DNA from: a virus
Strand: one strand, 5' to 3'
DNA: 31,136 bases
Virus record (IMG/VR): IMGVR_UViG_3300034403_000110
Span: 1 to 31,136 of that record
This document shows, one piece after another, positions 1 through 16,808 of this stretch (position 1 is its first letter; every line of letters starts with the position of its first letter). Below the pieces are notes generated by a model. That model had not been told where the DNA came from, did not search any database, and was given only the letters and a program-made list of their open reading frames with translations. A program made the position numbers and the translations under genes.

Positions 1-1152
1 AGTTGCTCCGGGTTGCAAAACTTTGGCATGGCACTACGTTGTGAGGCTACAGGAAAGGAGGTTAACCTTACCCCACAAGATAAACCTGCTGATATTTATC
101 AGACAGTTATCACTAAGGTTAAAGATAAGTTAGAATCCCGAATACCTCATTGGGATTGCATGACTCAAGCAGACGCCGAAAGAGAGGCAACAGAACTTCT
201 TAGGCACTCCTTTGTCCAAAAAGAAGCGAAAGCGTTTCTATTATTTATGGAGGAGGTACTATCTCCATTCTACGATGAGAAAGGAAATAAGATACCCAAG
301 AGTGAAGAAGCTTTGAAGGGTCATAAAATCAGGGAGGAATATTTAGCGATGTACTCATGGTTGAAGTTTGGATTGAACAGGAAGATAAGTAAGCGTTCAG
401 TAATGACATTCCCCTACGGATCAAGAGCCTATGGGTTTCGTGATCAACTCATGGAGGACATAGTAGATAAGACCCGAAGAGAACAAACCCTGCTCTTGGA
501 GTCAGGTAAGATAACTAGAGAGGAGTACGATGAGGCTTATCCTTTTGTACACTTGTCAGGGTATGCAGGGGCAGGTCACATGGCTAATTGGCTTTATGAG
601 GCAGTCACAGGTACAGTTGTGAAAGCTGCTGAAGCAATGCAATGGTTGAAGGAGTGCGCCAAGCTTGTAGCTAAAGGAAACAAGCCTGTCATCTGGACAA
701 CACCACTTGGATTTCCAGTTAAACAGCATTACCATAAGTCCGAGAAACAATTGATTAAGACCTCATTCTTGGGTGCAAAGGATGTGAGATTCATCATGCG
801 TAAGTCATTGCCGGATGTAGATGGGCGGAAGCAGTCAGCCTCTGTATCGCCTAACTTTGTTCACTCACTTGATGCCTCTCACCTGATGCTTGTGACCGCA
901 CGATCTGGGTTAGATAATCTGGCCTTAGTTCACGACAGCTTTGGCACTCTACCGAGCAGGACAGATTATCTATTCAAGGTCTTGAGAGAGGAGTTCTTCA
1001 ACTTATATACTGAAGTGGATGTCTTTGAGAACTTCCGAGAAGAAGTGTTGCAACAATTAGATGAAAAGGAGAAGAAGAAATTAGCACCTTGCCCGGAAAA
1101 AGGTAGCTTAGATTTATCTTTAATCAACCAGAGTATGTATTGCTTTGCCTAA
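1..1152 (+). CDS. Phage single-subunit RNA polymerase, C-terminal part (5' truncated by window)
   Basis: This is the catalytic C-terminal part (383 codons visible) of a T7-type DNA-dependent RNA polymerase, which transcribes the middle and late phage genes from phage-specific promoters. The frame is open from base 1. The first residues, SCSGLQNF, match the T7 segment just after catalytic Asp537, so that Asp lies just outside the window. Fingers motif KRSVMTFPYGS (nt 391-423) carries the equivalents of T7 Lys631 and Tyr639. HSLDASHL (about nt 865) and HDSFGT (nt 931-948) form the palm, the latter holding the second catalytic Asp (T7 Asp812). The protein ends in Phe-Ala like T7 RNAP. Nt 726-801 corresponds to the promoter-specificity loop and differs strongly from T7, as expected if it reads the promoter-like repeats at 1326, 1405 and 12398. 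Identification is secure; the N-terminal half is missing only because of the window edge. Confidence 0.97.
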   Translation, partial: SCSGLQNFGMALRCEATGKEVNLTPQDKPADIYQTVITKVKDKLESRIPHWDCMTQADAEREATELLRHSFVQKEAKAFLLFMEEVLSPFYDEKGNKIPKSEEALKGHKIREEYLAMYSWLKFGLNRKISKRSVMTFPYGSRAYGFRDQLMEDIVDKTRREQTLLLESGKITREEYDEAYPFVHLSGYAGAGHMANWLYEAVTGTVVKAAEAMQWLKECAKLVAKGNKPVIWTTPLGFPVKQHYHKSEKQLIKTSFLGAKDVRFIMRKSLPDVDGRKQSASVSPNFVHSLDASHLMLVTARSGLDNLALVHDSFGTLPSRTDYLFKVLREEFFNLYTEVDVFENFREEVLQQLDEKEKKKLAPCPEKGSLDLSLINQSMYCFA

Positions 1153-1178: not shown

Positions 1179-1343
1179 ATGAGTGAGAGTAACGCCCCCT
1201 CAAGTGGGGGGAAAGGAAGTAGAAGAAGGGAACGGAAAGTTAGTGATGCTGAGTATAAGGCTAACTGGGATTTAATCTTTACTAAAAAGAAGAAGGAGAA
1301 AAAGTTAACTGAGGTGAGACAGAAAGTTAACGGACACCTTTAA
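1179..1343 (+). CDS. Small basic protein of unknown function downstream of RNA polymerase
   Basis: This encodes a 54-residue, strongly basic protein with a Gly/Ser-rich N-terminus followed by RRRERK and KKKKEKK. The middle motif, EYKANWDLIF, resembles the Y-x-x-N-(W/Y)-D-x-I-F pattern that I recall from small phage proteins of unknown function. I chose ATG 1179. A TTG at 1140 would extend the frame 13 codons into the RNA polymerase gene and seems less likely. The Shine-Dalgarno sequence is weak. The last codons overlap promoter-like repeat P1 (from 1326), and a terminator follows, so it is probably the last gene of the early transcript. The function is unknown. Confidence 0.6.
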   Translation: MSESNAPSSGGKGSRRRERKVSDAEYKANWDLIFTKKKKEKKLTEVRQKVNGHL

Positions 1344-1350
1344 GACAACT
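1326..1350 (+). promoter_or_regulatory. Putative phage RNA polymerase promoter P1
   Basis: The element GTTAACGGACACCTTTAA is followed by GACAACT. It recurs at 1405-1429 with one mismatch in 25 bases, and in diverged form at 12398-12422. Its size (18 bases before a G), its position downstream of the RNA polymerase gene, and its placement before the replication and head genes fit promoters for the phage polymerase. The likely +1 is the G at 1344. It overlaps the end of the small gene 1179-1343. The promoter function is inferred from recurrence and position. Confidence 0.7.
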
Positions 1351-1369
1351 GATTGATTGTCGCTCAGTT

Positions 1370-1404
1370 GGCAGTACTTCCACATCGGAGGTATTGCCTT
1401 TTTT
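1370..1404 (+). terminator. Intrinsic terminator at the early/middle boundary
   Basis: A 12-base-pair stem (1370-1381 with 1387-1398, including two G-U pairs) closes a five-base loop and is followed directly by six T (1399-1404). This is a textbook rho-independent terminator. It lies between promoter-like repeats P1 and P2. By analogy with the T7 early terminator it could stop host polymerase after the early genes, and may also attenuate transcription from P1. Confidence 0.9.
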
Positions 1405-1429
1405 GTTAACGGACAGCTTTAAGACAACT
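1405..1429 (+). promoter_or_regulatory. Putative phage RNA polymerase promoter P2
   Basis: GTTAACGGACAGCTTTAA followed by GACAACT differs from P1 by a single C to G change in 25 bases. It starts immediately after the terminator T-run and lies 24 bases before the next gene (1453), so transcription from it would not meet the terminator. The likely +1 is the G at 1423. It is expected to drive the SSB to NrdB block. Confidence 0.72.
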
Positions 1430-1452
1430 TAATTTTACTACACAGGAAACTA

Positions 1453-1656
1453 ATGAAAACAACACTACATGACGTTGAACTATTTGGAGACGATGACACG
1501 CTCTTAACTTTAGAAGTTGAGCATGATGGATTCATTAACCACAACGTAACTATCGAGTCAGTTAAATGGCGAGATAAGGACATCAAAGATGAACTGAGTT
1601 ATGAGGAACTTTATTACCTTGGAGACTTGATCGCTGACTTAAACCCAACTACATAG
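1453..1656 (+). CDS. Small acidic protein of unknown function
   Basis: This encodes a 67-residue acidic protein that I do not recognise. It is the first gene after promoter-like repeat P2 and lies directly upstream of the SSB gene. The Shine-Dalgarno AGGAAA is well placed before ATG 1453. The sequence has an N-terminal acidic stretch (FGDDDT) and a C-terminal acidic, amphipathic half (DELSYEELYYLGDL). It shows no transmembrane segment, signal peptide or cysteine. Its position corresponds to that of T7 gene 2, a 64-residue inhibitor of host RNA polymerase lying just before gene 2.5, but I see no convincing sequence similarity, so that role is only a positional guess. Confidence 0.75.
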   Translation: MKTTLHDVELFGDDDTLLTLEVEHDGFINHNVTIESVKWRDKDIKDELSYEELYYLGDLIADLNPTT

Positions 1657-1668
1657 GACTACTATCAT

Positions 1669-2304
1669 ATGGCTAAACAGAAAATCTTATCACCCAAAGG
1701 TACAGCAGTTTACCCTTGGTTGAATAACCCAGACACTCGCTCATTTAATGGGCAACCAAGCAGACCTGCCTATAAGGTTAGCTTACGCCTCACAGGAGAG
1801 GCCATAGGACAACTACAGGCATCAATCGACCCCTTAGTTGAGGAAAGCTATCAGTTAGCTTTAGAGGAAGCTAAACCTGCTGATAGGAAGAAAGTACATC
1901 GTGCTTACCCCTATTCTGAAGAGGTTGACTCAATGGGGAATGAGACAGGTGCAATGCTTTTCAAGTTCAAGCAGAACGCTGAACTTCGTGCTAAAGACGG
2001 AAGCATCATTAAGATGAAAGTCCCTCTCTTTGATAGCAAGCTGAACACCGTGTCTGAAATGGTGTATGGGGGTAGTGAGATTAAGACGGCCTTCACCACC
2101 AGACCTTACTACCTAGCTTTGACTAAGGCAGCAGGAATCTCATGTGATTTATCCGCAGTTCAAGTCCTTACCCTTGTGTCCGGCAATGGACAAACAGGTA
2201 CTTCATTTGGTTTTGGAAGTGAAGAGGGTTTTGAATCAGTTGCCGAGGTGGAATCCCCACAAACTTTTGAGGAAGCCTTTGAGGATGAAGACGAGGAGTT
2301 CTAG
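1669..2304 (+). CDS. Single-stranded DNA-binding protein (T7 gp2.5-like)
   Basis: This 211-residue protein coats single-stranded DNA at the phage replication fork and coordinates polymerase and primase-helicase. Its length and layout match T7 gp2.5. An N-terminal region with conserved LSPKGTAVYPWLN and the aromatic and basic positions of an OB fold is followed by a central MKVPLFDSK segment. The C-terminal tail is highly acidic (about the last 30 residues) and ends in Phe, as in T7 gp2.5, where the tail contacts replication partners. The ATG at 1669 follows a weak AGG in the stop codon of the upstream gene, suggesting translational coupling. Its 3' end overlaps the RusA-like gene by 20 bases. 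Confidence 0.92.
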   Translation: MAKQKILSPKGTAVYPWLNNPDTRSFNGQPSRPAYKVSLRLTGEAIGQLQASIDPLVEESYQLALEEAKPADRKKVHRAYPYSEEVDSMGNETGAMLFKFKQNAELRAKDGSIIKMKVPLFDSKLNTVSEMVYGGSEIKTAFTTRPYYLALTKAAGISCDLSAVQVLTLVSGNGQTGTSFGFGSEEGFESVAEVESPQTFEEAFEDEDEEF

Positions 2305-2644
2305 TGAGTGGGTATCCGCACACATTAAACCTTTAAGTATTAATGAGGCATGGAATGGGCGAAAGGTTAAGTCAGCTAAGTACAGGAGATACGAGGAAGT
2401 ATTACTCGCTATTCTCCCAGACTTAACCATCCCCATAGGCGATCTCTATGTCAAGTTAGTGGTTAGATATAGGTCTAACCGCTCAGATATAGATAACTGC
2501 ATTAAGCCTTTCTTAGACATCTTACAAAAGCGGTATCACTTCAATGATAACAGGGTTTATAGATTATCAATAAGGAAGGAAGTTGTACCCAAACATGAGG
2601 AGGGAATCACTTTTTCAATAACAGATTATGAAACTAAAAAATAG
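2285..2644 (+). CDS. rusA: RusA-like Holliday-junction resolvase
   Basis: This 119-residue protein is predicted to cut branched DNA (Holliday junctions) formed during replication, recombination and packaging. The key evidence is RSDIDNCIKPFLDILQ followed by FNDNRVYRL. This matches the RusA pattern D-x-D-N-x-x-K-x-x-x-D-x-L plus a downstream acidic pair, containing the metal-binding Asp residues and the conserved Lys. An N-terminal INEAWNGR segment also fits the family. The start is ATG 2285, with GAGGA 11 bases upstream, inside the SSB gene; an earlier start would only duplicate the SSB region. The gene occupies the slot where T7 carries the unrelated endonuclease I (gene 3), which suggests functional replacement. 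Confidence 0.88.
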   Translation: MKTRSSSEWVSAHIKPLSINEAWNGRKVKSAKYRRYEEVLLAILPDLTIPIGDLYVKLVVRYRSNRSDIDNCIKPFLDILQKRYHFNDNRVYRLSIRKEVVPKHEEGITFSITDYETKK

Positions 2645-3095
2645 AGAAAAAACAACACAGCTTGTCATACACTGTTCAGCAACTAAGCCGGACATGATGA
2701 TTGGCGCAAAAGAGATAACAGCATGGCATAAGGACAGGGGGTGGCTGACTAACGGTTACCACTATGTAATTAATCGCTCTGCTCGTTTAGAACTGGGACG
2801 GCAGGAAGATGCTATAGGAGCAGGGGCTAGGGGAAATAATCTGGAGTCTGTTCATATCTGCATGGTAGGAGGAGTGGATGCGGAGTTAAAACCTGACGAT
2901 AACTTTACCGTAAGTCAGTACACCACCTTACGCAACGTACTCATTTTACTACGCAGTCGATACCCAGAAACAACCATTTATGGTCACTACGAACTCGATA
3001 ATAAGAAGGCTTGTCCATCGTTTGATGTAGACAGATTCTTAGATGTCATCGACATGACCAAAGAACCAACTAAAACTACTAACTATTTAACTTAA
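2628..3095 (+). CDS. N-acetylmuramoyl-L-alanine amidase (T7 lysozyme, gp3.5-like)
   Basis: This 155-residue zinc amidase cleaves the bond between muramic acid and L-alanine in peptidoglycan. Zinc ligands are visible as His15 (VIHCSATKP), His120 (YGHYE) and Cys129 (KKACPSFD). Tyr44 (NGYHYVI) and Lys127 match the T7 catalytic positions Tyr46 and Lys128, and the length is close to the 151 residues of T7. In T7 this protein also binds and inhibits the phage RNA polymerase, so a regulatory role is plausible here too. It overlaps the RusA-like gene by 17 bases. There is no signal peptide, so release would need a holin or a similar factor. Confidence 0.96.
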   Translation: MKLKNREKTTQLVIHCSATKPDMMIGAKEITAWHKDRGWLTNGYHYVINRSARLELGRQEDAIGAGARGNNLESVHICMVGGVDAELKPDDNFTVSQYTTLRNVLILLRSRYPETTIYGHYELDNKKACPSFDVDRFLDVIDMTKEPTKTTNYLT

Positions 3096-3108
3096 AAGGA
3101 CTCATTTT

Positions 3109-3423
3109 ATGACTACCACTACTAAACTTACTCAGCCGGAAATCATCATCAATCACATCGTTAAATACGGTGAGTTAACTTGTAAGATGGCACTTAATCT
3201 TTATGACATTGCTCACCTGCCTAGCAAGATTTATCTTCTTAAAGCCCAAGGTTTTGAGTTCGTTACTAGAGAGGTATCAAGAGGAGAAAGAGGTCGAGCC
3301 ATTGTCGCTTATAATCTGACTGAAGACCATAGAACACACGCTTTAGATGTCGTGGAGTACAACCGCTTATATAGCAAATTAAGATTGCAAGCTATACAAG
3401 ATACCCATCAATTGCCTATCTAA
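3109..3423 (+). CDS. Small winged-helix/HTH protein
   Basis: This 104-residue protein resembles the HTH_39-type winged-helix domain found in phage proteins. Residues about 8-55 read as helices ending in ALNLYDIAHLPSKIYLLKAQGFEF, matching the usual pattern of a hydrophobic helix, then an S/A-x-x-I-x-x-L recognition helix, then the QG-(F/Y) wing. A short basic segment (RGERGRA) follows. The Shine-Dalgarno AAGGA lies upstream of ATG 3109. The gene sits between the amidase and the primase-helicase, and its stop TAA touches the TTG start of the primase gene. The DNA-binding role is inferred, and a target site cannot be named. Confidence 0.72.
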   Translation: MTTTTKLTQPEIIINHIVKYGELTCKMALNLYDIAHLPSKIYLLKAQGFEFVTREVSRGERGRAIVAYNLTEDHRTHALDVVEYNRLYSKLRLQAIQDTHQLPI

Positions 3424-5028
3424 TTGAAGACGGAATCTGCATTTGTTTCCCATGAACCATGCCCCTCATGTGCTAGTAAAGATAACTTAGCTAGGTACAG
3501 TGATGGGCATGGTTACTGTTTTTCATGTGAGTACTTTGAAACGGCTGAAGGAGAGATTAAGGTGAGTAGTAAAATAGAGTTTACCCCTTTGAAGGGGGAG
3601 TATAAGGCGTTAAAAGCTAGGGGGATCACGGAAGAAACCTGCGCCTTATACCACTACTCCATTAGCGATAGTGTTAACGGTAGAGTTCACGTTGCTAATA
3701 TGTACAACAAGGACGGTACTCTCACTGCTCAGAAATTGAGAGGTAAGGGTAAGGCATTTAGTGTCCGAGGTAATCTTGATAATTCCCTCTTTGGTAGACA
3801 TTTGTGGTCAGGTGGAAGGAAGCTTGTAATTACAGAAGGTGAGATAGATTGTCTTTCTGTGTCACAAGTTCAAGGCAATTCCTACCCAGTTCTTTCCCTC
3901 CCTAATGGGGCTGCAGGTGCTAAGAAGGTTATAGCGAGCAACTTAGAGTATCTAGATAACTTTGAAGAGATTATCCTAATGTTTGATATGGATAAGGCAG
4001 GACGTAAGGCTAGTTTAGAGTGCGCTTCTATCTTACCTATAGAGAAAGTTAAGATTGCAGAGTTACCTGAGAAGGATGCCAATACCTGTCTAACTGAGGG
4101 TAAGGGCAAGGCCATCATCAATGCCATATGGTCAGCAGTCCCTTATCGTCCTGATGGGTTAGTAAAACTCTCCGATATCATAGACGATGTACTAAAGCCT
4201 ACTGAAGTGGGTATCCCTTGGTTCTTACCTACCTTAACAGAGTATACCTACGGTAGAAGATGGGGAGAGACTTACTTCTTCGGGGCAGGAACAGGTGTAG
4301 GTAAGACCGATGTATTCACTCAATCAATTGCTTTTGACATTGAGACCTTGAAGGAAAAAGTAGGGGTGTTTTACTTAGAGCAAGGGACAATTGAAACTGG
4401 TAAGCGTATAGCAGGGAAGCTATGCGGTAAACGCTTTCATGTCCCAGATGCAGGGTGGACGAGTAAGGAACTTGAAGCTTGCTTAAAGGATAAAGAGTTA
4501 GTAGATAGGATCACCTTATATGATTCATTCGGGGTCAATGATTGGGACTCAATGAGACAGAAGATTGTCTACTTAGCCTCAAATGGAGTGCGCCTTTTCT
4601 ATATAGATCACCTGACAGCATTAGCAACAGGACAGGATCAGAATGAAAGGGAAGTCCTAGAAAAGATAACTGCTGACATGGCATCTTTAGCTAAGAAGCA
4701 TCAAGTTATCATCCACGTTATATCTCACCTCGCTACACCAGACGGCACACCCCACGAAGAAGGTGGTCGTGTCTCTATCCGGCACTTTAAAGGTAGTAGA
4801 GCAATTGGCTTTTGGGCGCACTTTATGTTTGGCATGGAGCGTGACCAACAGCATGAGGATGTCTCTTTAAGACAACTCACTACCTTTAGGGTACTCAAGG
4901 ATAGGCATACAGGTTCTTCTACTGGCAAGACTATTCAACTTGGTTATATAGAAGAGACAGGGATGTTATTTGAGCATGACGAGGATGTAACAAAGGTGTT
5001 TACCCCAGAGGTAATTGATGAGTTCTAG
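3424..5028 (+). CDS. Primase-helicase (T7 gp4-like), full-length form
   Basis: This 534-residue bifunctional protein makes RNA primers and unwinds DNA at the fork. It begins with a zinc ribbon with Cys13, Cys16, Cys32 and Cys35, with the same C-x2-C-x15-C-x2-C spacing as T7 gp4. A TOPRIM primase domain follows (TEGEIDCLS, then FDMDKAGR). Next comes a RecA-type hexameric helicase with Walker A GAGTGVGKTD (about nt 4281-4310), the Walker B-like YIDHLTAL and the sensor HVISHL. The C-terminus is acidic and ends in Phe, as needed in T7 for polymerase contact. The only available start is TTG 3424, directly after an in-frame TAA that also ends the HTH gene. No Shine-Dalgarno is evident, so initiation probably relies on coupling. 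Confidence 0.95.
   Translation: MKTESAFVSHEPCPSCASKDNLARYSDGHGYCFSCEYFETAEGEIKVSSKIEFTPLKGEYKALKARGITEETCALYHYSISDSVNGRVHVANMYNKDGTLTAQKLRGKGKAFSVRGNLDNSLFGRHLWSGGRKLVITEGEIDCLSVSQVQGNSYPVLSLPNGAAGAKKVIASNLEYLDNFEEIILMFDMDKAGRKASLECASILPIEKVKIAELPEKDANTCLTEGKGKAIINAIWSAVPYRPDGLVKLSDIIDDVLKPTEVGIPWFLPTLTEYTYGRRWGETYFFGAGTGVGKTDVFTQSIAFDIETLKEKVGVFYLEQGTIETGKRIAGKLCGKRFHVPDAGWTSKELEACLKDKELVDRITLYDSFGVNDWDSMRQKIVYLASNGVRLFYIDHLTALATGQDQNEREVLEKITADMASLAKKHQVIIHVISHLATPDGTPHEEGGRVSIRHFKGSRAIGFWAHFMFGMERDQQHEDVSLRQLTTFRVLKDRHTGSSTGKTIQLGYIEETGMLFEHDEDVTKVFTPEVIDEF
3548..3564 (+). promoter_or_regulatory. Internal ribosome binding site and GTG start for a short helicase form
   Basis: AAGGAG at 3548-3553 lies eight bases before an in-frame GTG at 3562. 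Initiation there would produce a 488-residue protein lacking the zinc ribbon but keeping TOPRIM and helicase domains. This matches the T7 arrangement in which gene 4 gives a full-length 4A and a zinc-less 4B. This site is much stronger than the one for the full-length TTG start. Confidence 0.6.
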
Positions 5029-5036
5029 GAGGTGTG

Positions 5037-6863
5037 ATGAGGAGATATTGCTTTGATGTTGAGACAGATGGATTACTTCCGGAACTAACCAAGATACATT
5101 GCTTAGTCATTCAAGATGTAGATACAGGGGAGGTCTTTAAGTATCCACCGGGTGAGGTGAAGGAGGGGTTAAAGAAGTTAGCGTATGCTGATGTCCTCAT
5201 TGCTCACAATGGGATTGGATTTGACCTACCTGCAATACAAAAGATTTACCCTAAGTTTAAAAGCAAGCCTTGGGGTAAGGTCTTAGATACACTGGTTTAC
5301 GCTAAGTTGGTGTGGTCAAACCGAAGAGACCTTGACTTTGGTTTATTTCAGAAGAATAAATTGGAGGGGAAGTACATTGGCTCTCATTCCTTAAAGTCTT
5401 ACGGATACAGATTAGGTATCTTAAAAGGTGACTTCTCTGAGGGTACAGATTGGCAGACCTACAGTGAGGACATGTTGAGTTATTGTGAGCAGGATGTAGC
5501 AGTAACTACGGCATTATTTAAGCAGTTGGAGTCTTACAATTACTCTGAGACTGCTATTAAGTTAGAGATGGATGTCGCTACCTTGATGACGCAACAGGAG
5601 AGAAACGGTTTCTACTTTAATGAGAAGGAGGCCGCCAATCTTTACGCTGAGTTGAGTGAACGTAGAGGGGTCATACATCAAGAACTACTTGATACTTTTG
5701 GTGCGTGGTATAAAAAAGGTATAGAAACTACACCTAAACGTACTCTTAATTTCAAGGATAAGACCAAACCTTCTTATGTAGAAGGGGCAGTCTACACCAA
5801 GGTCACACGCATCACCTTTAATCCGGCATCAAGAGCGCATATTGCTAAACGCCTGAAAGAGTTATTTGGATGGGAATCACCTGAGACTACAGAGAAAGGC
5901 CAACCAAAAATAGATGAGACTACTCTGCAATGTCTAGGTAATGAACACTCTAAGTTGCTCATAGAGTACTTCATGTTACAGAAGAGGATCGGGCAGTTAG
6001 CTGAGGGGGATAACGCATGGTTGAAATTAGTAAGAGAGGGAAAACTTCATGGTCGTATTAACACTAATGGTGCTGTCACAGGCAGGGCTACTCACCATTC
6101 TCCTAATATTGCTCAAGTACCGAGTGGTAACGCTATTTACGGCAAAGAGTGTCGTTCTTTATTTACTGTCCCTGATGGTTATAAGTTATTTGGTTGCGAT
6201 GCTTCTGGCCTTGAACTTAGATGCCTTGGTCATTACATGAGTGCGTATGACGGTGGGGAGTATAACAAGGAGATACTTGAGGGTGATATCCATACTGCTA
6301 ATCAGAACGCAGCAGGACTATCCTCAAGACCTCAAGCTAAGACTTTCATCTACGCCTTTTTATATGGTGCAGGGGATGTCAAGGTTGGTTCTATTGTCCA
6401 TCCCGATTCAGATGAAGAGACTCAACGTAAGGCCGGAAGGAGACTGAAATCCAGATTCTTGAAGAATACCCCTGCGCTTAAAACATTAAGGGAGCGTACC
6501 TCAACTGCTTCAGAGAGAGGGTACTTAAAGGGGTTAGATGGAAGACAGATATTCATCCGCTCTAAACACGCTGCCTTAAACTCTCTATTGCAATCAGCAG
6601 GGGCAATTATTTGTAAGGCATGGTTAGTCGAACTGGACAAGCTAATGTCCTCTCATGGCTTCTCTCATTCATGGCAAGGTGATTATGTTTACTGCGCTTG
6701 GGTTCATGATGAATTACAGATAGCAGTAAAAGGGAAGGAAGCCCTAGAAGCAATTAAGAAAGCCTCAAGACAGGCGATTAGAAATGTCGAAGTAGATTTA
6801 AAACTACGCTGTCCTCTAGATAGCGACTACTCAATTGGCTCTACATGGGCTGACACACACTAA
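5037..6863 (+). CDS. Family A DNA polymerase with 3'-5' exonuclease (T7 gp5-like)
   Basis: This is the replicative polymerase, 608 residues against 704 in T7. The exonuclease domain shows DVETDG (Asp7, Glu9), AHNGIGFDLP and YCEQDVAVT. Polymerase motifs are A, DASGLELR (nt 6198-6221); B, AKTFIYAFLYGAG (about nt 6331-6372); and C, VHDELQ (HDE at nt 6705-6713). NGAVTGRATH and GLDGR are also conserved. I chose ATG 5037 because AGGAGG (5027-5032) is only one base from the GTG at 5034. The segment matching the T7 thioredoxin-binding insertion (between GAWY and ITFN, nt about 5700-5822) is roughly 35 residues shorter than in T7. It lies directly downstream of the primase-helicase gene. Confidence 0.97.
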   Translation: MRRYCFDVETDGLLPELTKIHCLVIQDVDTGEVFKYPPGEVKEGLKKLAYADVLIAHNGIGFDLPAIQKIYPKFKSKPWGKVLDTLVYAKLVWSNRRDLDFGLFQKNKLEGKYIGSHSLKSYGYRLGILKGDFSEGTDWQTYSEDMLSYCEQDVAVTTALFKQLESYNYSETAIKLEMDVATLMTQQERNGFYFNEKEAANLYAELSERRGVIHQELLDTFGAWYKKGIETTPKRTLNFKDKTKPSYVEGAVYTKVTRITFNPASRAHIAKRLKELFGWESPETTEKGQPKIDETTLQCLGNEHSKLLIEYFMLQKRIGQLAEGDNAWLKLVREGKLHGRINTNGAVTGRATHHSPNIAQVPSGNAIYGKECRSLFTVPDGYKLFGCDASGLELRCLGHYMSAYDGGEYNKEILEGDIHTANQNAAGLSSRPQAKTFIYAFLYGAGDVKVGSIVHPDSDEETQRKAGRRLKSRFLKNTPALKTLRERTSTASERGYLKGLDGRQIFIRSKHAALNSLLQSAGAIICKAWLVELDKLMSSHGFSHSWQGDYVYCAWVHDELQIAVKGKEALEAIKKASRQAIRNVEVDLKLRCPLDSDYSIGSTWADTH

Positions 6864-6874
6864 CAGGATGATTA

Positions 6875-7129
6875 ATGAACAACGATGATAAGGTCTTCGC
6901 ATTACTTTGGGGTTTAGGTGACCTACTGGATAAGCATAGTGCTGCTATTTCCTTCAATGAAGATGATGGACTAACTCTAATATTTGCTGATATGGCAAAT
7001 GAACTTGATGTAATAACTATCCCTTTTAATTCGGAGGTTGCCTCAAGTGGGACAATCTTATCCCTGCTACAGAAGGCTAGAGGTGAGGATGAGGATTATG
7101 TGGTAGAAGAAGAGAGGAAGTTAAATTGA
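6875..7129 (+). CDS. Acidic hypothetical protein
   Basis: This encodes an 84-residue acidic protein that I do not recognise. It starts at ATG 6875 with AGGA upstream. The sequence has a hydrophobic N-terminal helix (FALLWGLGDLL), a central beta-like stretch (GLTLIFADM, VITIPF), and an acidic end (EDEDYVVEEERK). There are no cysteines and no clear membrane segment. It lies between DNA polymerase and the nucleotide-metabolism genes. Its stop codon overlaps the TTG start of the next small gene (TTGA), so the two are probably translated together. Confidence 0.75.
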   Translation: MNNDDKVFALLWGLGDLLDKHSAAISFNEDDGLTLIFADMANELDVITIPFNSEVASSGTILSLLQKARGEDEDYVVEEERKLN

Positions 7130-7287
7130 AAGTGTGTACAGCGAGATGCGATAACACTAAGTGTGCAAGGAACTTCATCCACCTCAAGCCAGTTTACCCT
7201 ACGATACCTATGCTGGCCTTTGACTACTCTGGGGAGTGTAAGGAATATAAGAAGGTTGCATGGTCAGCCGGAAGGGGAAAGAGATAA
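7126..7287 (+). CDS. Small cysteine-containing (zinc-ribbon-like) protein
   Basis: This is a 53-residue protein starting at TTG 7126, which overlaps the upstream stop in the form TTGA. GAGGAAG lies about seven bases upstream and supports this start; GTG 7132 is an alternative. Four cysteines occur as C-x3-C-x4-C (CTARCDNTKC) near the N-terminus and one near the C-terminus (SGECKEYK), a layout that could bind zinc. The C-terminus is basic (GRGKR). Its stop overlaps the next ATG (TAATG). Short Cys-rich proteins are common in phage early and middle regions, but no function can be assigned. Confidence 0.65.
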   Translation: MKVCTARCDNTKCARNFIHLKPVYPTIPMLAFDYSGECKEYKKVAWSAGRGKR

Positions 7288-7457
7288 TGAATATGGGTAA
7301 ATTAAACCGAACTGTTGAAAAGATAGAAGAGGACATTATTGTGTGTTCCGCTCAGTACCAAGTAGCTGTGACTAGATTGGCTAAACTTACAGCAGAGAAG
7401 ATTGAGAAGAGTCGAAAAGATGCACAGTTTATAGCACTACTACGGAGGGGAAGATGA
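7287..7457 (+). CDS. Small coiled-coil hypothetical protein
   Basis: This encodes a 56-residue, Lys/Glu-rich and probably mostly helical protein. The ATG at 7287 overlaps the preceding stop, with AAGGGG about ten bases upstream; ATG 7293 is possible too. Heptad-like hydrophobic spacing (LNRTVEKIEEDIIV, then VTRLAKLTAEKIEK) suggests a short coiled coil, and the end is basic (LLRRGR). The ATGA overlap with thyX indicates coupled translation. The function is unknown; an accessory or nucleic-acid-binding role would be speculation. Confidence 0.65.
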   Translation: MNMGKLNRTVEKIEEDIIVCSAQYQVAVTRLAKLTAEKIEKSRKDAQFIALLRRGR

Positions 7458-8125
7458 TTAGTTTTGATGATGTACTAGGAGATGGGGTAGGGAATGCCCA
7501 CCTTATTGACTCAATGGGGGATGACCTGACTGTTGTTAATGCGGCTAGAGTTTCTATGGGCAAGGAAAGCTTTTGGGAAATGAGTAAACTTCCAGAACGT
7601 GATGCGAAACTTATTAATTATCTAGCAAAGCATCAGCATTGGACACCCTTTTCTCATGTCATGGTGACCCTCAGATTGAAGATGCCTATATTCGTTGCAC
7701 GACAATGGTTTAAGCATACGATTGGGTTCACTCGTAATGAGATAAGTAGACGGTATGTCGATGAGACTCCAGAGTTCTACTCCCCAGAACGATTACGCCT
7801 TAGAGCAGATAATGTAAAGCAGGGTAGCAGTGATGAGGAAATTGAGACTGACGAGTTTAACAAGGAGTATGAGGACTCTGCTCTAGCTTTATATCGTCTG
7901 AATCTAGACGATGGTGTTGCCCCTGAGTTAGCAAGGATGTACTTACCTCAATCTACATATACAGAGTTTTACGAGACAGCCTCCCTAGCCGCTTACGCCA
8001 GACTTTTCAACCTTAGAACAGAAGAGACTTCACAACAAGAGATTAGGAAGTACGCAGAAGTTGTGGGTGAGATATGTTCTTGGATAGCAGAGGAGTCTTG
8101 GGATGCCCTTTCAAAGCAGAGATAG
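7454..8125 (+). CDS. thyX: Flavin-dependent thymidylate synthase ThyX
   Basis: This 223-residue enzyme converts dUMP to dTMP using methylene-tetrahydrofolate and NADPH with FAD, supplying thymidylate for replication. Recognisable parts are NAARVSMGK, the substrate segment HWTPFSHVM, ARQWFKHTIGFTRNEISRRY (residues 82-101) and YLPQSTYTEFY. The signature R-H-R-x7-S is altered here to K87-H88-T89 with an eight-residue gap to S98, while NE and RRY are retained. The gene has a strong GGAGGGG ribosome site and an ATGA overlap with the upstream gene. Its end overlaps the downstream membrane-protein gene by 23 bases. Confidence 0.93.
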   Translation: MISFDDVLGDGVGNAHLIDSMGDDLTVVNAARVSMGKESFWEMSKLPERDAKLINYLAKHQHWTPFSHVMVTLRLKMPIFVARQWFKHTIGFTRNEISRRYVDETPEFYSPERLRLRADNVKQGSSDEEIETDEFNKEYEDSALALYRLNLDDGVAPELARMYLPQSTYTEFYETASLAAYARLFNLRTEETSQQEIRKYAEVVGEICSWIAEESWDALSKQR

Positions 8126-8300
8126 GCAGGTGTTTATTGTGTATTGTGTCTGGGCGTTTTCCTTCTTCTTATGTCTCTTCAATGCCTTGGAGATTATAGC
8201 TATTCCTTGGGGTGTAGCCTTACTTCCATTCCTCATTTCATTGGTGATTCTACTTTTGCTTATTCTATATATCAACCTTGAGGGGAGCGAGACACGATGA
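8103..8300 (+). CDS. Small membrane protein with two predicted transmembrane segments (holin-like candidate)
   Basis: This is a 65-residue, very hydrophobic protein. Two membrane-spanning stretches are evident, about residues 10-32 (VFIVYCVWAFSFFLCLF) and 35-58 (FLISLVILLLLILYI), linked by a very short turn with Pro. AGGAG seven bases before ATG 8103 supports translation even though the start lies inside thyX. The ATGA overlap couples it to the exonuclease gene. Length and topology fit a small phage holin, but the charged C-terminal tail typical of holins is short (NLEGSETR) and the location is among replication genes. The holin role is therefore tentative. Confidence 0.7.
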   Translation: MPFQSRDRQVFIVYCVWAFSFFLCLFNALEIIAIPWGVALLPFLISLVILLLLILYINLEGSETR

Positions 8301-9046
8301 GACAGACAAATACCTTATTAATTGATGCAGATATCTTCTGCTTTCAGGCAGCCTCAGCAGTAGAGGAAGAGATTCATTGGGGAGACGATCTATGGACTCT
8401 TCACTCTGACTTAGGTAAGGCCAAAGCTAAGGTGGAGAGGGATTTAGATAAGGTGGCAATGACCATTGGTGGTTACTGCGAGTTTATCATCTGTCTCACT
8501 GATAAGGAGAACTTCAGAAAAGAGGTCTTACCTTCATACAAGGAGAATAGGAAGGGTAAAAGGAAGCCAATAGCCTTGGCAGAATTGAAGGAGTGGTTAG
8601 CCTCTAAGTACGAAAGCTTCACTAGACCTACCTTAGAAGCGGATGACTGCATGGGAATCTTAGCTACATGGGATGCCTATAAACCCGGCACTAAGAAGAT
8701 TATTGTTAGTGAAGATAAGGACATGAAGACTATCCCCTGCTACCTATTTAATCCGGCAAAGGATGTAAAGGTTAAGGAGGTTACTGAGGTAGAAGCAGAC
8801 TACTACCACTTCAAACAGACCTTAATGGGAGATACAACAGATGGATACAAAGGTTGCCCCGGCATAGGTGAGGTTGGTTCTACTAAAGTTCTAGATAAAG
8901 GTAACACTTGGGATAATGTGGTCTCTGCCTTTGTCCATAAAGGTCTTACGCAAGGCGAGGCTTTAGTTCAAGCTAGAGTTGCAAGAATATGTAGAGCATC
9001 AGACTACGACTTTAAAAAGAAAGAGGTGATTTTATGGACTCCCTAA
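8297..9046 (+). CDS. 5'-3' exonuclease (T7 gp6-like, FEN family)
   Basis: This 249-residue nuclease degrades DNA 5' to 3', removing RNA primers, generating recombination ends and, in T7, helping break down host DNA. Visible motifs are LLIDADIF at the N-terminus (metal-binding Asp), LEADDCMG, VSEDKDMKTI, and GDTTDGYKGCPGIGEVGSTKVL. The last is the acidic plus helix-three-turn-helix DNA-binding signature, nearly the same as in T7 gp6. AGGGGAG upstream gives a strong ribosome site. It lies inside the nucleotide-metabolism block and overlaps the DUF3310 gene by 13 bases. Confidence 0.94.
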   Translation: MRQTNTLLIDADIFCFQAASAVEEEIHWGDDLWTLHSDLGKAKAKVERDLDKVAMTIGGYCEFIICLTDKENFRKEVLPSYKENRKGKRKPIALAELKEWLASKYESFTRPTLEADDCMGILATWDAYKPGTKKIIVSEDKDMKTIPCYLFNPAKDVKVKEVTEVEADYYHFKQTLMGDTTDGYKGCPGIGEVGSTKVLDKGNTWDNVVSAFVHKGLTQGEALVQARVARICRASDYDFKKKEVILWTP

Positions 9047-9255
9047 AAAGACAGGTGGGTGGTAAGCACTATGTTGACAAGGCTATTCAGCCGTTAACTT
9101 ATTGTGTGGAGAATAAGCTAGACCCTTATCAATTTAATATCGTTAAATATGCCACACGGATGTACGACAAAGGACAATGTTTATCTGATTTAGATAAGAT
9201 AATTCATTACGCACAGTTAGCTAAAGAGAACGCAATCAAGCAGGGAATCAAATGA
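9034..9255 (+). CDS. DUF3310 family protein
   Basis: This 73-residue protein has the DUF3310 layout. The opening VGGKHYVDKAIQPLTYCVENKLDPYQFNIVKY is followed by TRMYDKG and a DLDKIIHYAQL helix. The family is widespread in tailed phages and sometimes labelled as a nucleotide kinase without good support; its function is not established. Translation begins inside the exonuclease gene and ends with an ATGA overlap with the MazG-like gene, so it is part of a coupled cluster with nucleotide-pool enzymes. Confidence 0.88.
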   Translation: MDSLKRQVGGKHYVDKAIQPLTYCVENKLDPYQFNIVKYATRMYDKGQCLSDLDKIIHYAQLAKENAIKQGIK

Positions 9256-9689
9256 GAGAGAAACACGTTAAAGAGTTTATGGAAGCAACCATGCAGACGG
9301 TTGATTTGAAACTGACAGACGAGGATGTGGATGCAGTAGACATGACTTTAGCCTTGGAAGGTACGCTTATCGCTGAAGAGTGTAAAGAGTTATTAGATGA
9401 GTTAATTGCTTTACGTCAGACCCTCGCAGATGGACATGAAATAACGAATGAGATGATTGGTAAGTTCTTAAAGGAATTAGCTGATCTTCAATATGTCACT
9501 AGCCATTGTGCTGCTGCTTTTGGGCTACCTGCTGCCATAGCTTTTTATGAGGTACATCATAGCAATATGTCGAAGCTTGATGACAATGGTGAACCAGAAC
9601 TTAGAGCGGATGGCAAGGTACTGAAGGGGGCTAATTACACAGCACCTGATTTTGATTTCATAGTGGAACAATATGTCGATAAAGATTAA
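9252..9689 (+). CDS. MazG-like nucleotide pyrophosphohydrolase
   Basis: This 145-residue all-alpha NTP pyrophosphohydrolase probably hydrolyses nucleoside triphosphates to monophosphates. The metal-binding pattern is seen as IAEECKELLDE (E-E-x-x-E) and KELADLQYV (E-x-x-D). The C-terminal VHHSNMSK, GKVLKG and NYTAPDF segments are characteristic of phage and bacterial MazG-like proteins. Acting with ThyX and ribonucleotide reductase, it may remove non-canonical nucleotides or feed dUMP to ThyX. Its 3' end overlaps nrdA by 17 bases. Confidence 0.87.
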   Translation: MREKHVKEFMEATMQTVDLKLTDEDVDAVDMTLALEGTLIAEECKELLDELIALRQTLADGHEITNEMIGKFLKELADLQYVTSHCAAAFGLPAAIAFYEVHHSNMSKLDDNGEPELRADGKVLKGANYTAPDFDFIVEQYVDKD

Positions 9690-11433
9690 AAGGACTAGAA
9701 ATAGCCTACTGTCAGACCAAGCAACAATATTGCTTACCGATTACTACACCCTCCCCAGAGAAGATATCCAAGAGGCCTTTGCTAGAGCATCATTGGCCTA
9801 CTCTGGTGGAGACCAGAGTCTAGCCCAAAGATTATATGACTACGCCTCTAAAGGATGGTTCATGTTCTCTTCGCCAATTCTAAGTAACGCACCTAGAAGA
9901 GGGGAGAAGAATAGGGGGTTACCAATCTCCTGCTTCCTCTCTTATGTGCCTGATACCTTAGAGGGGTTAATAGAACATCAATCTGAACTTGCATGGTTGT
10001 CTGTAAAGGGTGGTGGTGTAGGTGGACATTGGTCAGATGTACGAGCGGTAAGTGATAAAGCCCCTTCACCCATTCCTTTTATGAAAGTCGCTGACTCAAG
10101 CATGACTGCTTATAAACAAGGTAAGACACGAAAGGGGTCTTATGCGGCCTACCTAGATATCAATCACCCTGACATATTAGAGTTCTTAGATATTAGAGTA
10201 CCAACTGGTGGTGATGCTAACCGTAAGTGCTTCAATATGAATAATGCGGTTAACCTTCCTGATGAGTTCATGGAGAAGGTACTCAAGGATGAGCAGATGG
10301 ACTTAGTTGATCCGCATGATGGAAGCGTTAGAGATACTGTCTCCGCACGAAAGCTATGGGAAAAGGTACTGGAGGTTCGCTTCCGGACAGGAGAACCATA
10401 CCTTAACTTCATTGATGAGGCGAATAGGAAGTTGCCTTATGCCTTAAAGAAGAAGGGACTGAAGATACACGGATCAAACTTGTGTAATGAGATTCACCTG
10501 CCCACCAATGAGGACAGAACTGCTGTCTGTTGCTTATCTTCCGTAAACCTAGAGAAATGGGAAGAGTGGAAAGACAGTGGGATGGTAGGTGATCTCATTC
10601 ATATGCTTGATAATGTCCTTACTGCCTTTATAGCTACTGCCCCCGATGCTCTAAGTAAAGCAGTTTACAGCGCACAAAGGGAACGTAGTCTTGGGTTGGG
10701 AGCAATGGGTTTTCATGCCCTCTTGCAGTCTAAGAATCTCCCCTTTGAATCAGCACAGGCTGTCGGCTTAAATAACTTAATCTTCATGTCTATCAAGAGA
10801 AGAGCAGAACAAGCATCTGTAGACTTAGCTGATAAGCTTGGAGCATACCCTGATGGGGAAGATACAGGCATGAGGAATAGTCACTTATTGGCGATAGCAC
10901 CAAACGCTAACTCCTCTATGATTGCAGGGACATCACCTTCAATTGAACCTTGGAAAAGTAATGCCTTTACACATAGAACCAGAGTGGGCGCACATCTTAT
11001 TAAGAATAAGTACCTCAATCAGGAATTAAAGAAGATTCAAAGTATTAAAGGGTATGACGGTCAGTGGCTTGAGGATCAATGGCAGAGCATTATTCACCAT
11101 GAAGGCTCAGTACAACACTTAGACTGCTTAGACCCTTGGCATAAATCTGTCTTCAAGACTGCTTTTGAAATAGACCAACATTGGGTAATTCAACACGCTG
11201 CTGATCGGCAGAAGTTCATCTGTCAGGGACAAAGTGTGAACTTATTCTTTGCTTCCGGTGTAGAACGCTCATACGTTAACTCTGTTCACTTAGATGCTTG
11301 GAAGAAGAAGATGAAGGGGTTGTATTACCTACGAACTTCCTCTGGACATACTGCTGAACAAGTGGGACGGAAGGTAGAAAGGATTGCACTTAAAGACTTT
11401 GAGGAGAGCGAATGTCTAGCTTGCGAGGGATAA
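9673..11433 (+). CDS. nrdA: Ribonucleoside-diphosphate reductase, large (alpha) subunit
   Basis: This 586-residue catalytic subunit of class I ribonucleotide reductase makes deoxyribonucleotides. The active-site residues are present: Cys87 (ISCFLSY), Asn269/Cys271/Glu273 (NLCNEIHLP) and Cys286 (VCCLSS). The Tyr551-Tyr552 radical relay pair (YYLRTSSG) is also present, as is the C-terminal Cys581-x2-Cys584 pair that exchanges disulfides. PNANSSMIAGTSPSIEP is also typical. It is much shorter than E. coli NrdA (761), mainly because the N-terminal ATP-cone is absent; the protein begins almost directly with the barrel-preceding helices. Feedback inhibition by dATP through that cone is therefore not expected. 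nrdB follows after three bases. Confidence 0.96.
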   Translation: MSIKIKRTRNSLLSDQATILLTDYYTLPREDIQEAFARASLAYSGGDQSLAQRLYDYASKGWFMFSSPILSNAPRRGEKNRGLPISCFLSYVPDTLEGLIEHQSELAWLSVKGGGVGGHWSDVRAVSDKAPSPIPFMKVADSSMTAYKQGKTRKGSYAAYLDINHPDILEFLDIRVPTGGDANRKCFNMNNAVNLPDEFMEKVLKDEQMDLVDPHDGSVRDTVSARKLWEKVLEVRFRTGEPYLNFIDEANRKLPYALKKKGLKIHGSNLCNEIHLPTNEDRTAVCCLSSVNLEKWEEWKDSGMVGDLIHMLDNVLTAFIATAPDALSKAVYSAQRERSLGLGAMGFHALLQSKNLPFESAQAVGLNNLIFMSIKRRAEQASVDLADKLGAYPDGEDTGMRNSHLLAIAPNANSSMIAGTSPSIEPWKSNAFTHRTRVGAHLIKNKYLNQELKKIQSIKGYDGQWLEDQWQSIIHHEGSVQHLDCLDPWHKSVFKTAFEIDQHWVIQHAADRQKFICQGQSVNLFFASGVERSYVNSVHLDAWKKKMKGLYYLRTSSGHTAEQVGRKVERIALKDFEESECLACEG

Positions 11434-11436
11434 CTT

Positions 11437-12393
11437 ATGTCCGTAAATAAACCAAACAGAGTATATAAACCCTTTCAATATCCTTGGGCAATGGAGATAG
11501 CAGAGGATCACGAAAAGATACATTGGGGTTCTTGGGAAGTAAAACTCCAAGAGGATGTGAATCAATGGAAAGGGAATGAGTTATCAATTAGTGAGAAAGA
11601 CCACATTACACAGATACTCAGGTTATTTACTCAAAGTGATGTACAGGTTGCTGCTAATTACTGTGACCTATTCATTCCCTACTTCAAGAACAATGAGATT
11701 AGAAATATGCTCTTGTCGTTTGCGAATAGGGAGGGTACGCATCAACGTGCCTATGCTTTACTTAACGATACACTTGGGTTAGATGAAAGTGAGTATTCCG
11801 CTTTCCTTGAGTATGATGCGATGAAAGAGAAGATTGCTTTCATGGCTTCTGGTGGTGGGATGTGGTGTGGAAACTCAGACATGGCAATCTGTCTGGCTCA
11901 AAGTACCATCAATGAGGGGATGTCCTTATTCTCAGCCTTCATCATGCTTCTAAACTACCAGAGGTTCGGTAAGATGAAAGGTATGTGTGAGGTAGTCGAA
12001 TGGAGTATCCGAGACGAGACTAAGCACGTTGAAGGGATGACTGAGTTATTCAAGGTATATCTAAAAGAGAATCCAAGACTTGTTACTGATTCTTTCAAGG
12101 CAGATGTCTATGAGATGGTACGGACAGCGGTTGGCCTAGAAGATAAGGTCATTGAGTTAGCTTTTAGGATGGGGGATGTCGAGGGTCTAACTGCTTCTGA
12201 GGTGAAAGAGTATATTCGCTACTTAGCAGATAGAAGATTAATCCAAATGGGACTTAAAGCTAACTTCGGGGTTAAGGATAATCCGTTACCTTGGGTCGAT
12301 TGGATCATTGCAGGGGATAGCTTCAAGAACTTCTTTGAAGGGACTGTAACTGATTATAACGCTGAAGGAATGGCAGGAGACTTTGGATGGTAG
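11437..12393 (+). CDS. nrdB: Ribonucleoside-diphosphate reductase, small (beta) subunit
   Basis: This 318-residue radical-generating subunit pairs with NrdA. The di-iron ligands can be placed: Asp68, Glu99, His102, Glu160, Glu194 and His197. The radical tyrosine is Tyr106. Spacings Asp68-Glu99 (31) and Glu160-Glu194 (34) equal those of E. coli NrdB (84-115, 204-238), so this is a canonical tyrosyl-radical enzyme and not a Phe-substituted type. The C-terminal tail is acidic and aromatic (NAEGMAGDFGW), as required for docking on NrdA. The ribosome site GAGGG lies six bases upstream. The third promoter-like repeat begins right after its stop. Confidence 0.96.
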   Translation: MSVNKPNRVYKPFQYPWAMEIAEDHEKIHWGSWEVKLQEDVNQWKGNELSISEKDHITQILRLFTQSDVQVAANYCDLFIPYFKNNEIRNMLLSFANREGTHQRAYALLNDTLGLDESEYSAFLEYDAMKEKIAFMASGGGMWCGNSDMAICLAQSTINEGMSLFSAFIMLLNYQRFGKMKGMCEVVEWSIRDETKHVEGMTELFKVYLKENPRLVTDSFKADVYEMVRTAVGLEDKVIELAFRMGDVEGLTASEVKEYIRYLADRRLIQMGLKANFGVKDNPLPWVDWIIAGDSFKNFFEGTVTDYNAEGMAGDFGW

Positions 12394-12397
12394 AAAA

Positions 12398-12422
12398 GTT
12401 AACGGTCACCTGTAAGGGAGCA
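12398..12422 (+). promoter_or_regulatory. Putative phage RNA polymerase promoter P3 (late genes)
   Basis: GTTAACGGTCACCTGTAA matches the first 18 bases of P1 in 16 positions. It is followed by GGGAGCA where P1 and P2 have GACAACT. It fills the gap between nrdB and the first late gene. A G-rich start (GGGAG from 12416) is also the hallmark of strong T7 class III promoters, so this copy may be the stronger one for head genes. The AGGGAG also doubles as the ribosome site for the gene at 12428. Confidence 0.7.
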
Positions 12423-12627: not shown

Positions 12628-12864
12628 ATGTGTTTTGGAGGTTCGCCACCACCACCACCACCTTTACCACCTCCTCCACCTCCACCTCCACCACCCCCGG
12701 CGAAAGCCCCTCCTCCTGCATCTCCACGCAAGAGTAAAGTGTCAGAAGTGAAGAGAGCGAAGAATACCCCCACTAACTCTTTTAGGATAAAGAAGAGCGT
12801 TGGTACTACGTCAGGGGTTATTACTAATTCAAAGAAGTCGGGATTACGCATCCCTGTTAAATAA
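12628..12864 (+). CDS. Polyproline small protein 1 (gp7.3-like virion assembly candidate)
   Basis: This 78-residue protein starts MCFGGS, then has runs of 6 and 11 prolines split by one Leu. A basic C-terminal half ends in SGLRIPVK. AAGGAG lies eight bases before ATG 12628. Proline codons are mixed (CCA, CCT, CCC, CCG), so the run is a protein feature rather than a slipped repeat. Position just before the portal gene and the basic, Ser/Gly-rich tail fit T7 gp7.3, a small virion protein needed for tail assembly and adsorption. Similar M-C polyproline proteins occur at this place in T7-like phages of marine bacteria. The Cys at position 2 is shared with its neighbour. Confidence 0.75.
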   Translation: MCFGGSPPPPPPLPPPPPPPPPPPAKAPPPASPRKSKVSEVKRAKNTPTNSFRIKKSVGTTSGVITNSKKSGLRIPVK

Positions 12865-15597: not shown

Positions 15598-15622
15598 ACA
15601 ATCGGAAAGCTATTAGTTAAGG
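15598..15622 (+). promoter_or_regulatory. Weak candidate phage promoter before the capsid gene
   Basis: Aligned to P2 without gaps, the core from CGG (15603) to AG (15616) matches in 11 of 14 positions (CGGAAAGCTATTAG against CGGACAGCTTTAAG), but the upstream GTTAA block is largely absent. Its place just before the capsid gene corresponds to the T7 phi-10 promoter. Transcription would start at G 15616, inside the first arm of the following inverted repeat. The match is suggestive only. Confidence 0.28.
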
Positions 15623-16774: not shown

Positions 16775-16808
16775 AGAGGTTACCCTTAATTGGGTGACCT
16801 CTTTTTTT
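16775..16808 (+). terminator. Intrinsic terminator after the capsid gene (T-phi-like)
   Basis: An 11-base-pair stem (AGAGGTTACCC 16775-16785 with GGGTGACCTCT 16792-16802, one G-U pair) is followed by a run of T to 16808. It lies 24 bases after the capsid stop codon and directly before the ribosome site of the tail tube A gene. This is the same place as the late terminator of T7, which is leaky so that downstream tail genes are made at lower level. Confidence 0.9.

Follow-up and report, generated by a model that had tools for sequence, protein, structure and literature searches.

ONT-cappable-seq has identified eight phage-specific promoters in the integrase-encoding, T7-like Pseudomonas phage LUZ100 (PMC10134795), and the promoter of the RNA polymerase of cyanophage Syn5 is ATTGGGCACCCGTAA followed by GGG (PMC3950665). 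In T7 RNA polymerase, residue Asn748 contacts base pairs -10/-11 (PMC5937735), and the N748D substitution switches the enzyme to T3 promoter specificity (PMC11477551). Here, we describe a repeated 19-base element in positions 1 to 31,136 of IMG/VR virus record IMGVR_UViG_3300034403_000110 (hereafter, the window). A first-pass annotation had proposed that this element is a phage-polymerase promoter with an unfamiliar sequence. We find that it is very probably the promoter of the same phage's T7-like single-subunit RNA polymerase, a reading supported by the placement, strand, and anatomy of the copies and by covariation with the specificity loop of the polymerase.

The element, GTTAACGGWCASCTKTAAG, has three exact matches in the window, all on the plus strand (P1, P2, and P3; Table 1), where 0.04 matches are expected by chance (100 dinucleotide shuffles of the window, up to three mismatches). 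Neither a scan of the window at up to three mismatches nor a weight matrix found a further site there, and a weak copy previously listed at 15598 scored by neither pattern nor matrix and is dropped. A scan of IMG/VR for the exact pattern identified eight contigs. Seven of these are chance matches on contigs without any phage RNA polymerase or related gene. The only genuine one, the 13,873-base contig L009, ends in 123 bases that are 100% identical to window positions 1-123 and begins with 70 bases that are 100% identical to the last 70 of the window. Moreover, the RNA polymerase open reading frame (ORF) crosses the join without a stop to give a protein of 908 amino acids. Judged from these overlaps, L009 and the window are adjoining parts of one phage genome, as a join of contigs that does not prove a single virion. 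The joined map is about 44.8 kb. L009 carries three more copies (at 5806, 12066, and 12091; one departs from the pattern at a single position), and the three copies first reported thus become six.

All six copies lie on the coding strand, and none falls inside an ORF of at least 75 amino acids. Their weight-matrix scores range from 30.7 to 33.3 bits, while the best non-site in the window and L009 scores 13.2 bits, which is chance level (shuffles reach 10-19). Together they define the pattern GTTAACGG(A/T)CA(C/G)CT(T/G)TA(A/G) followed by G, in which GTTAACGG is invariant and the right arm varies at three positions. A nucleotide search of the phage collection gave no match.

Where do the copies lie? 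As first annotated, two follow the RNA polymerase gene (stop 1152) and one stands between nrdB and the late genes. A short ORF (67 amino acids from TTG 1140, or 54 from ATG 1179) ends within P1, which supplies its TAA stop codon. P3 occupies the 34-base gap between the nrdB stop (12393) and the ATG of the first late ORF (12428), and the 12 nucleotides of leader downstream of it contain a Shine-Dalgarno-like GGGAG. On L009, 12066 and 12091 are tandem copies directly upstream of the RNA polymerase ATG (12176), and the copy at 5806 follows terminase, thioredoxin, and one small ORF. These are places where LUZ100 has promoters with experimentally mapped transcript starts, although the LUZ100 sequence (ATTACCACACAG..TGGA; PMC10134795) differs from the present element. 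The two phages have in common one position before the RNA polymerase gene (LUZ100 phi1), two after it (phi2/phi3), the boundary between ribonucleotide reductase and late genes (phi6), and the position after terminase (phi8). They also share the layout integrase, terminator, promoter, RNA polymerase. In contrast, phi4, phi5, and phi7, which lie after the amidase and before the capsid gene, have no counterpart here.

The terminators follow the same plan. Between P1 and P2, the second of two hairpins (1370-1398) with its T6 is an intrinsic terminator and ranks first among terminator-like sites in the part of the window that was scanned; it is probably the early terminator for the host RNA polymerase. 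The T3 early terminator TE (7646-7667) lies immediately before phi1.5 as this one lies before P2. If the phage enzyme also stopped at this site, the P1 transcript would be a structured RNA of 61 nucleotides. A unique P1 small RNA was considered and set aside, since a terminator adjoins post-polymerase promoters also in T3 and in the polymerase locus of Nitrincola sp. A-D6, and the early-terminator role is therefore simpler. The terminator between the integrase and the tandem promoters is placed like LUZ100 T4, which lies between integrase and phi1, and that after the major capsid gene is the counterpart of T7 Tphi and LUZ100 T16, both of which also follow the capsid gene. The T3 record places its replication origin between the first two promoters after the polymerase gene, and P1 and P2 may likewise serve as a primary replication origin.

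Table 1. Promoter copies, terminators, and polymerase features (window positions unless L009 is named)
Feature	Position	Strand	Evidence
T7-like single-subunit RNA polymerase, C-terminal part, 383 amino acids	1..1152	+	PHROG 414, E 1.7e-95
Specificity loop, equivalent of T7 739-770	730..822	+	alignments
Promoter copy P1, GTTAACGGACACCTTTAA	1326..1344	+	exact match, 33.3 bits; predicted start G1344
Two hairpins followed by T6	1344..1404	+	-25.7 kcal/mol, z -5.65
Promoter copy P2, GTTAACGGACAGCTTTAA, directly 3' of terminator	1405..1423	+	exact match, 31.2 bits; predicted start G1423
Promoter copy P3, GTTAACGGTCACCTGTAA	12398..12416	+	exact match, 30.7 bits; predicted start G12416
Intrinsic terminator directly after major capsid gene	16775..16802	+	11-pair stem then T6
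Intrinsic terminator between integrase and tandem promoters	L009 11969-11986

The polymerase itself appears complete across the join in that equivalents of the T7 catalytic residues D537, K631, Y639, and D812 all align in the 908-residue protein. Its first 525 residues are encoded on L009 (12176-13750), and in the PDB both parts match T7 RNA polymerase (window part, E 1.7e-50; L009 part, E 1.5e-87). The residue that aligns with T7 Asn748 is a lysine (window codon 757-759, Lys778 of the joined protein). In the present phage this lysine goes with GG at -12/-11, as it does in Syn5 and CRP-171, whereas LUZ100 combines Asp at 748 with CC. The -12 to -7 block of the element is of the type found in LUZ100 and Nitrincola except that GG replaces CC.

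We therefore compared residue 748 with promoter bases across the collected loci, taking the residue and the element beside each polymerase gene independently. Loci were reduced to lineages less than 80% identical, and each element was classed mechanically by its first conserved GG or CC. Acidic residues (Asp or Glu) went with CC in 15 lineages and with GG in none; basic residues (Lys or Arg) went with GG in nine and with CC in three (Fisher p = 4.7e-5, a value that is indicative only because the lineages are not fully independent). T3 (Asp, CCC) and Syn5 (Lys, GGG) conform to this rule, and SP6 pairs Arg with GG, judged by eye from its sequence and promoters. Among the three exceptions, L065 and L061 look by eye like miscalls of flanking sequence (ATAGGTTGCCC and TGGTTGCCC), and L207 looks real. 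No clear element was found in HTVC019P. The covariation ties the element to the polymerase rather than to another protein. It is somewhat more likely than not that this pair is one case of a general code in T7-like phages, in which the charge of residue 748 sets -12/-11 as CC (Asp/Glu) or GG (Lys/Arg), which would make the promoters of uncultivated phages predictable and switchable from sequence alone.

Relatives of the phage carry other elements in the same places. We used an unsupervised repeat search. In blind runs on genomes whose promoters are known, it recovers those of T7 and seven of the eight of LUZ100. In RHEph01, it finds GAATTACCCCTCCCTTAGG twice before the RNA polymerase gene, twice after it, once before the late genes, and once after terminase; in CRP-171, GATTAGGTTGCACCATAGC occupies equivalent places. 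The nearest polymerases that we found, 47% identical to the present one, are those of loci L022-L024 and of Nitrincola sp. A-D6 Contig99. L022-L024 carry TTTACCCCCAGTANTAGC in five to seven places on one strand, and their element (TTTACCCCCAGTACTAGC) is on the coding strand and, as in the present phage, flanks the RNA polymerase gene on both sides and recurs at the late boundary and downstream of terminase. Contig99 (locus L203, 11213-11672), from a bacterial assembly, holds a T7-like polymerase gene with AATTACCACACACTTATGA on the coding strand before and after it, seven times in all. Its predicted transcripts would begin GACAA, like those of P1 and P2, and its last post-polymerase copy, like P1, is followed within about 35 nucleotides by an intrinsic terminator. 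Both groups combine CC at -12/-11 with Glu at 748, while the present phage has GG and Lys. The exact element gave only five weak matches in 160 loci of relatives, none in a promoter-like position, and chance-level matches in the Nitrincola genome. No clear element was found in L104 or L106, whose nrdA/nrdB are 77-78% identical to those of the present phage and whose polymerases are about 30-35% identical. L104 (IMGVR_UViG_3300034403_000061) is a T7-like contig with the same IMG sample number as L009; its nrdA/nrdB identity of 77-78%, set beside an RNA polymerase identity of about 30-34%, suggests that ribonucleotide reductase genes have been exchanged between co-occurring phages.

Several points weigh against the element being a polymerase promoter. 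The start site at the G after TAA is placed by anatomy, the nearest relatives carry different sequences and the exact element occurs in one phage only, and the covariation test assumes independent lineages and relies on noisy automatic element calls. Finally, the element contains a partial palindrome, TTAACGG-ACA-CCTTTAA, which would also suit an operator.

Could the element be an operator or stoperator, with this quasi-palindrome binding a dimer of a phage repressor? The element is an imperfect inverted repeat, L009 does encode an integrase (PF00589) and, adjacent to it, a winged-helix-like protein (10412-10771) with a weak helix-turn-helix match of 20 bits, below the cut-off, and two copies stand directly upstream of the polymerase gene. 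However, conservation is asymmetric. The left arm is invariant in all six copies and three positions of the right arm differ among them, although a site for a dimer would be expected to tolerate changes in either half. Similar partial symmetry is present in the Syn5 promoter. Copies at the late-gene boundary and after terminase stand where LUZ100 has promoters, and a repressor leaves the covariation with residue 748 unexplained. We consider an operator improbable.

It is less probable still that the copies are a dispersed non-regulatory repeat spread by recombination. A 44-base block is shared at 95% identity between window 1299-1342 and L009 5779-5822, covering the element and 27 bases upstream of it. 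By its sequence, the block looks as if the 3' end of the short ORF that starts at ATG 1179 had been duplicated to the genome end; it carries an extra GTTAAC in the bases upstream of the element. The remaining four copies, however, share nothing beyond the element and a short A-rich lead, and a dispersed repeat would reduce to coincidence both the agreement with mapped LUZ100 positions and the lineage-specific replacements in the same places. Host sigma-70 promoters that share a sequence by chance can be dismissed almost entirely, because the one match that a simple scan gives at a copy (TTAACG-17-AATAAT, 9/12, overlapping P3) has a -10 hexamer directly against the start codon of the following gene, no match occurs at P1 or P2, sigma-70-like sites are fewer than in shuffles (20 versus 32.7), and the 19-base element lacks a -35/-10 layout.

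With the element as the promoter of the phage's own polymerase, how would the genome be expressed? We propose that transcription of the early region, with a certain amount from the polymerase gene, is the work of the host RNA polymerase. The phage enzyme would then amplify its own gene from the tandem copies upstream, a positive feedback of the kind proposed for LUZ100 phi1. P1 and P2, on either side of the early terminator, would open the middle genes, and P3 the late genes through its short leader. The copy after terminase would act near the genome end, like T7 phiOR. In each case, Lys778 is predicted to read G-12/G-11, and transcription would start at the G after TAA.

The remaining gene content agrees with a phage of this type. 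In order, the window encodes RNA polymerase, single-stranded DNA-binding protein, nuclease, amidase, primase/helicase, DNA polymerase, thyX, exonuclease, mazG, nrdA, nrdB, portal, scaffold, capsid, and tail tubes; by gene content and order this is an Autographiviridae phage. From L009 come terminase, an early region, a tyrosine integrase matching PF00589 at E 1e-24, and part of what resembles a tRNA-Leu gene; the phage is T7-like, integrase-bearing, and potentially temperate. The tRNA-Leu-like stretch, which resembles the 5' half of such a gene, lies at L009 11847-12023 between the integrase and the polymerase promoters and may be the attachment site. The early region also encodes a C5 cytosine DNA methyltransferase (L009 9131-10090; PF00145, E 2.5e-35) with a possible anti-restriction role. 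A repeat of 12-base period, six units long and containing CCTAAAG, occupies L009 5970-6045. The T7 terminal regions (175-332 and 39671-39837) are also rich in CCTAAAG, and by this analogy the repeats probably mark the genome-end region. The tail-fibre gene has degenerate tandem repeats with a spacing of about 126 bases (window 30745-31136 and L009 1-117), which are probably the reason for the assembly break at this end. Between nrdB and portal, the window encodes a very proline-rich small protein (12628-12864); Syn5 gp36, annotated as proline-rich, is at the same place.

How unfamiliar is the promoter sequence? We compared it with known promoters in a start-aligned register, with p values from shuffles. 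Of the known sequences, the promoter of cyanophage Syn5 comes closest; it matches three of the four variants at 10-11 of 15 bases (p 0.0003-0.0014) and P2 at 9 of 15 (p 0.005). The element is thus not wholly unfamiliar, with Syn5 this close (p about 0.001). The Syn5 and present promoters have the same layout, GG-N-CACC-NN-TAA followed by G, in the same register, and the Syn5 polymerase also has Lys at the 748-equivalent position. Both genomes have few copies, two in Syn5 and six here. They differ in the 5' part (ATT in Syn5, GTTAAC here) and at -5/-4, and also in placement: in Syn5, one copy lies within the RNA polymerase gene and the other follows terminase, and in the present phage all six stand at gene boundaries. 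Since the two polymerases are only 26.5% identical, we treat this likeness as one of layout and not of established descent.

The promoters of T7, VSW-3, KpnP, Ro45Iw, KP34, and EM1 match the element only at background level; for T7 (TAATACGACTCACTATA followed by G), the match is 8 of 17 bases (p 0.07 to 0.25, non-significant). The anatomy, in contrast, is that of T7/T3 class II/III promoters: about 17-19 bases, an AT-rich 5' part, a specificity block at -12 to -7, and a start at G. In T7/T3, as in the present phage, promoters straddle the early terminator downstream of the polymerase gene. Copy number sets them apart, with about 17 in T7/T3 and six here, none of them before the scaffold or capsid genes. 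Relatives have thus kept the positions and overall anatomy of their promoters but replaced the sequence. This work adds an apparently orthogonal polymerase-promoter pair, from a lineage without a close isolate, to the small set that has been characterised, and the link between one residue and two bases would aid promoter prediction in T7-like phages from metagenomes. Set beside LUZ100, Syn5, and T7/T3, the element is a new sequence version of a known kind of switch.

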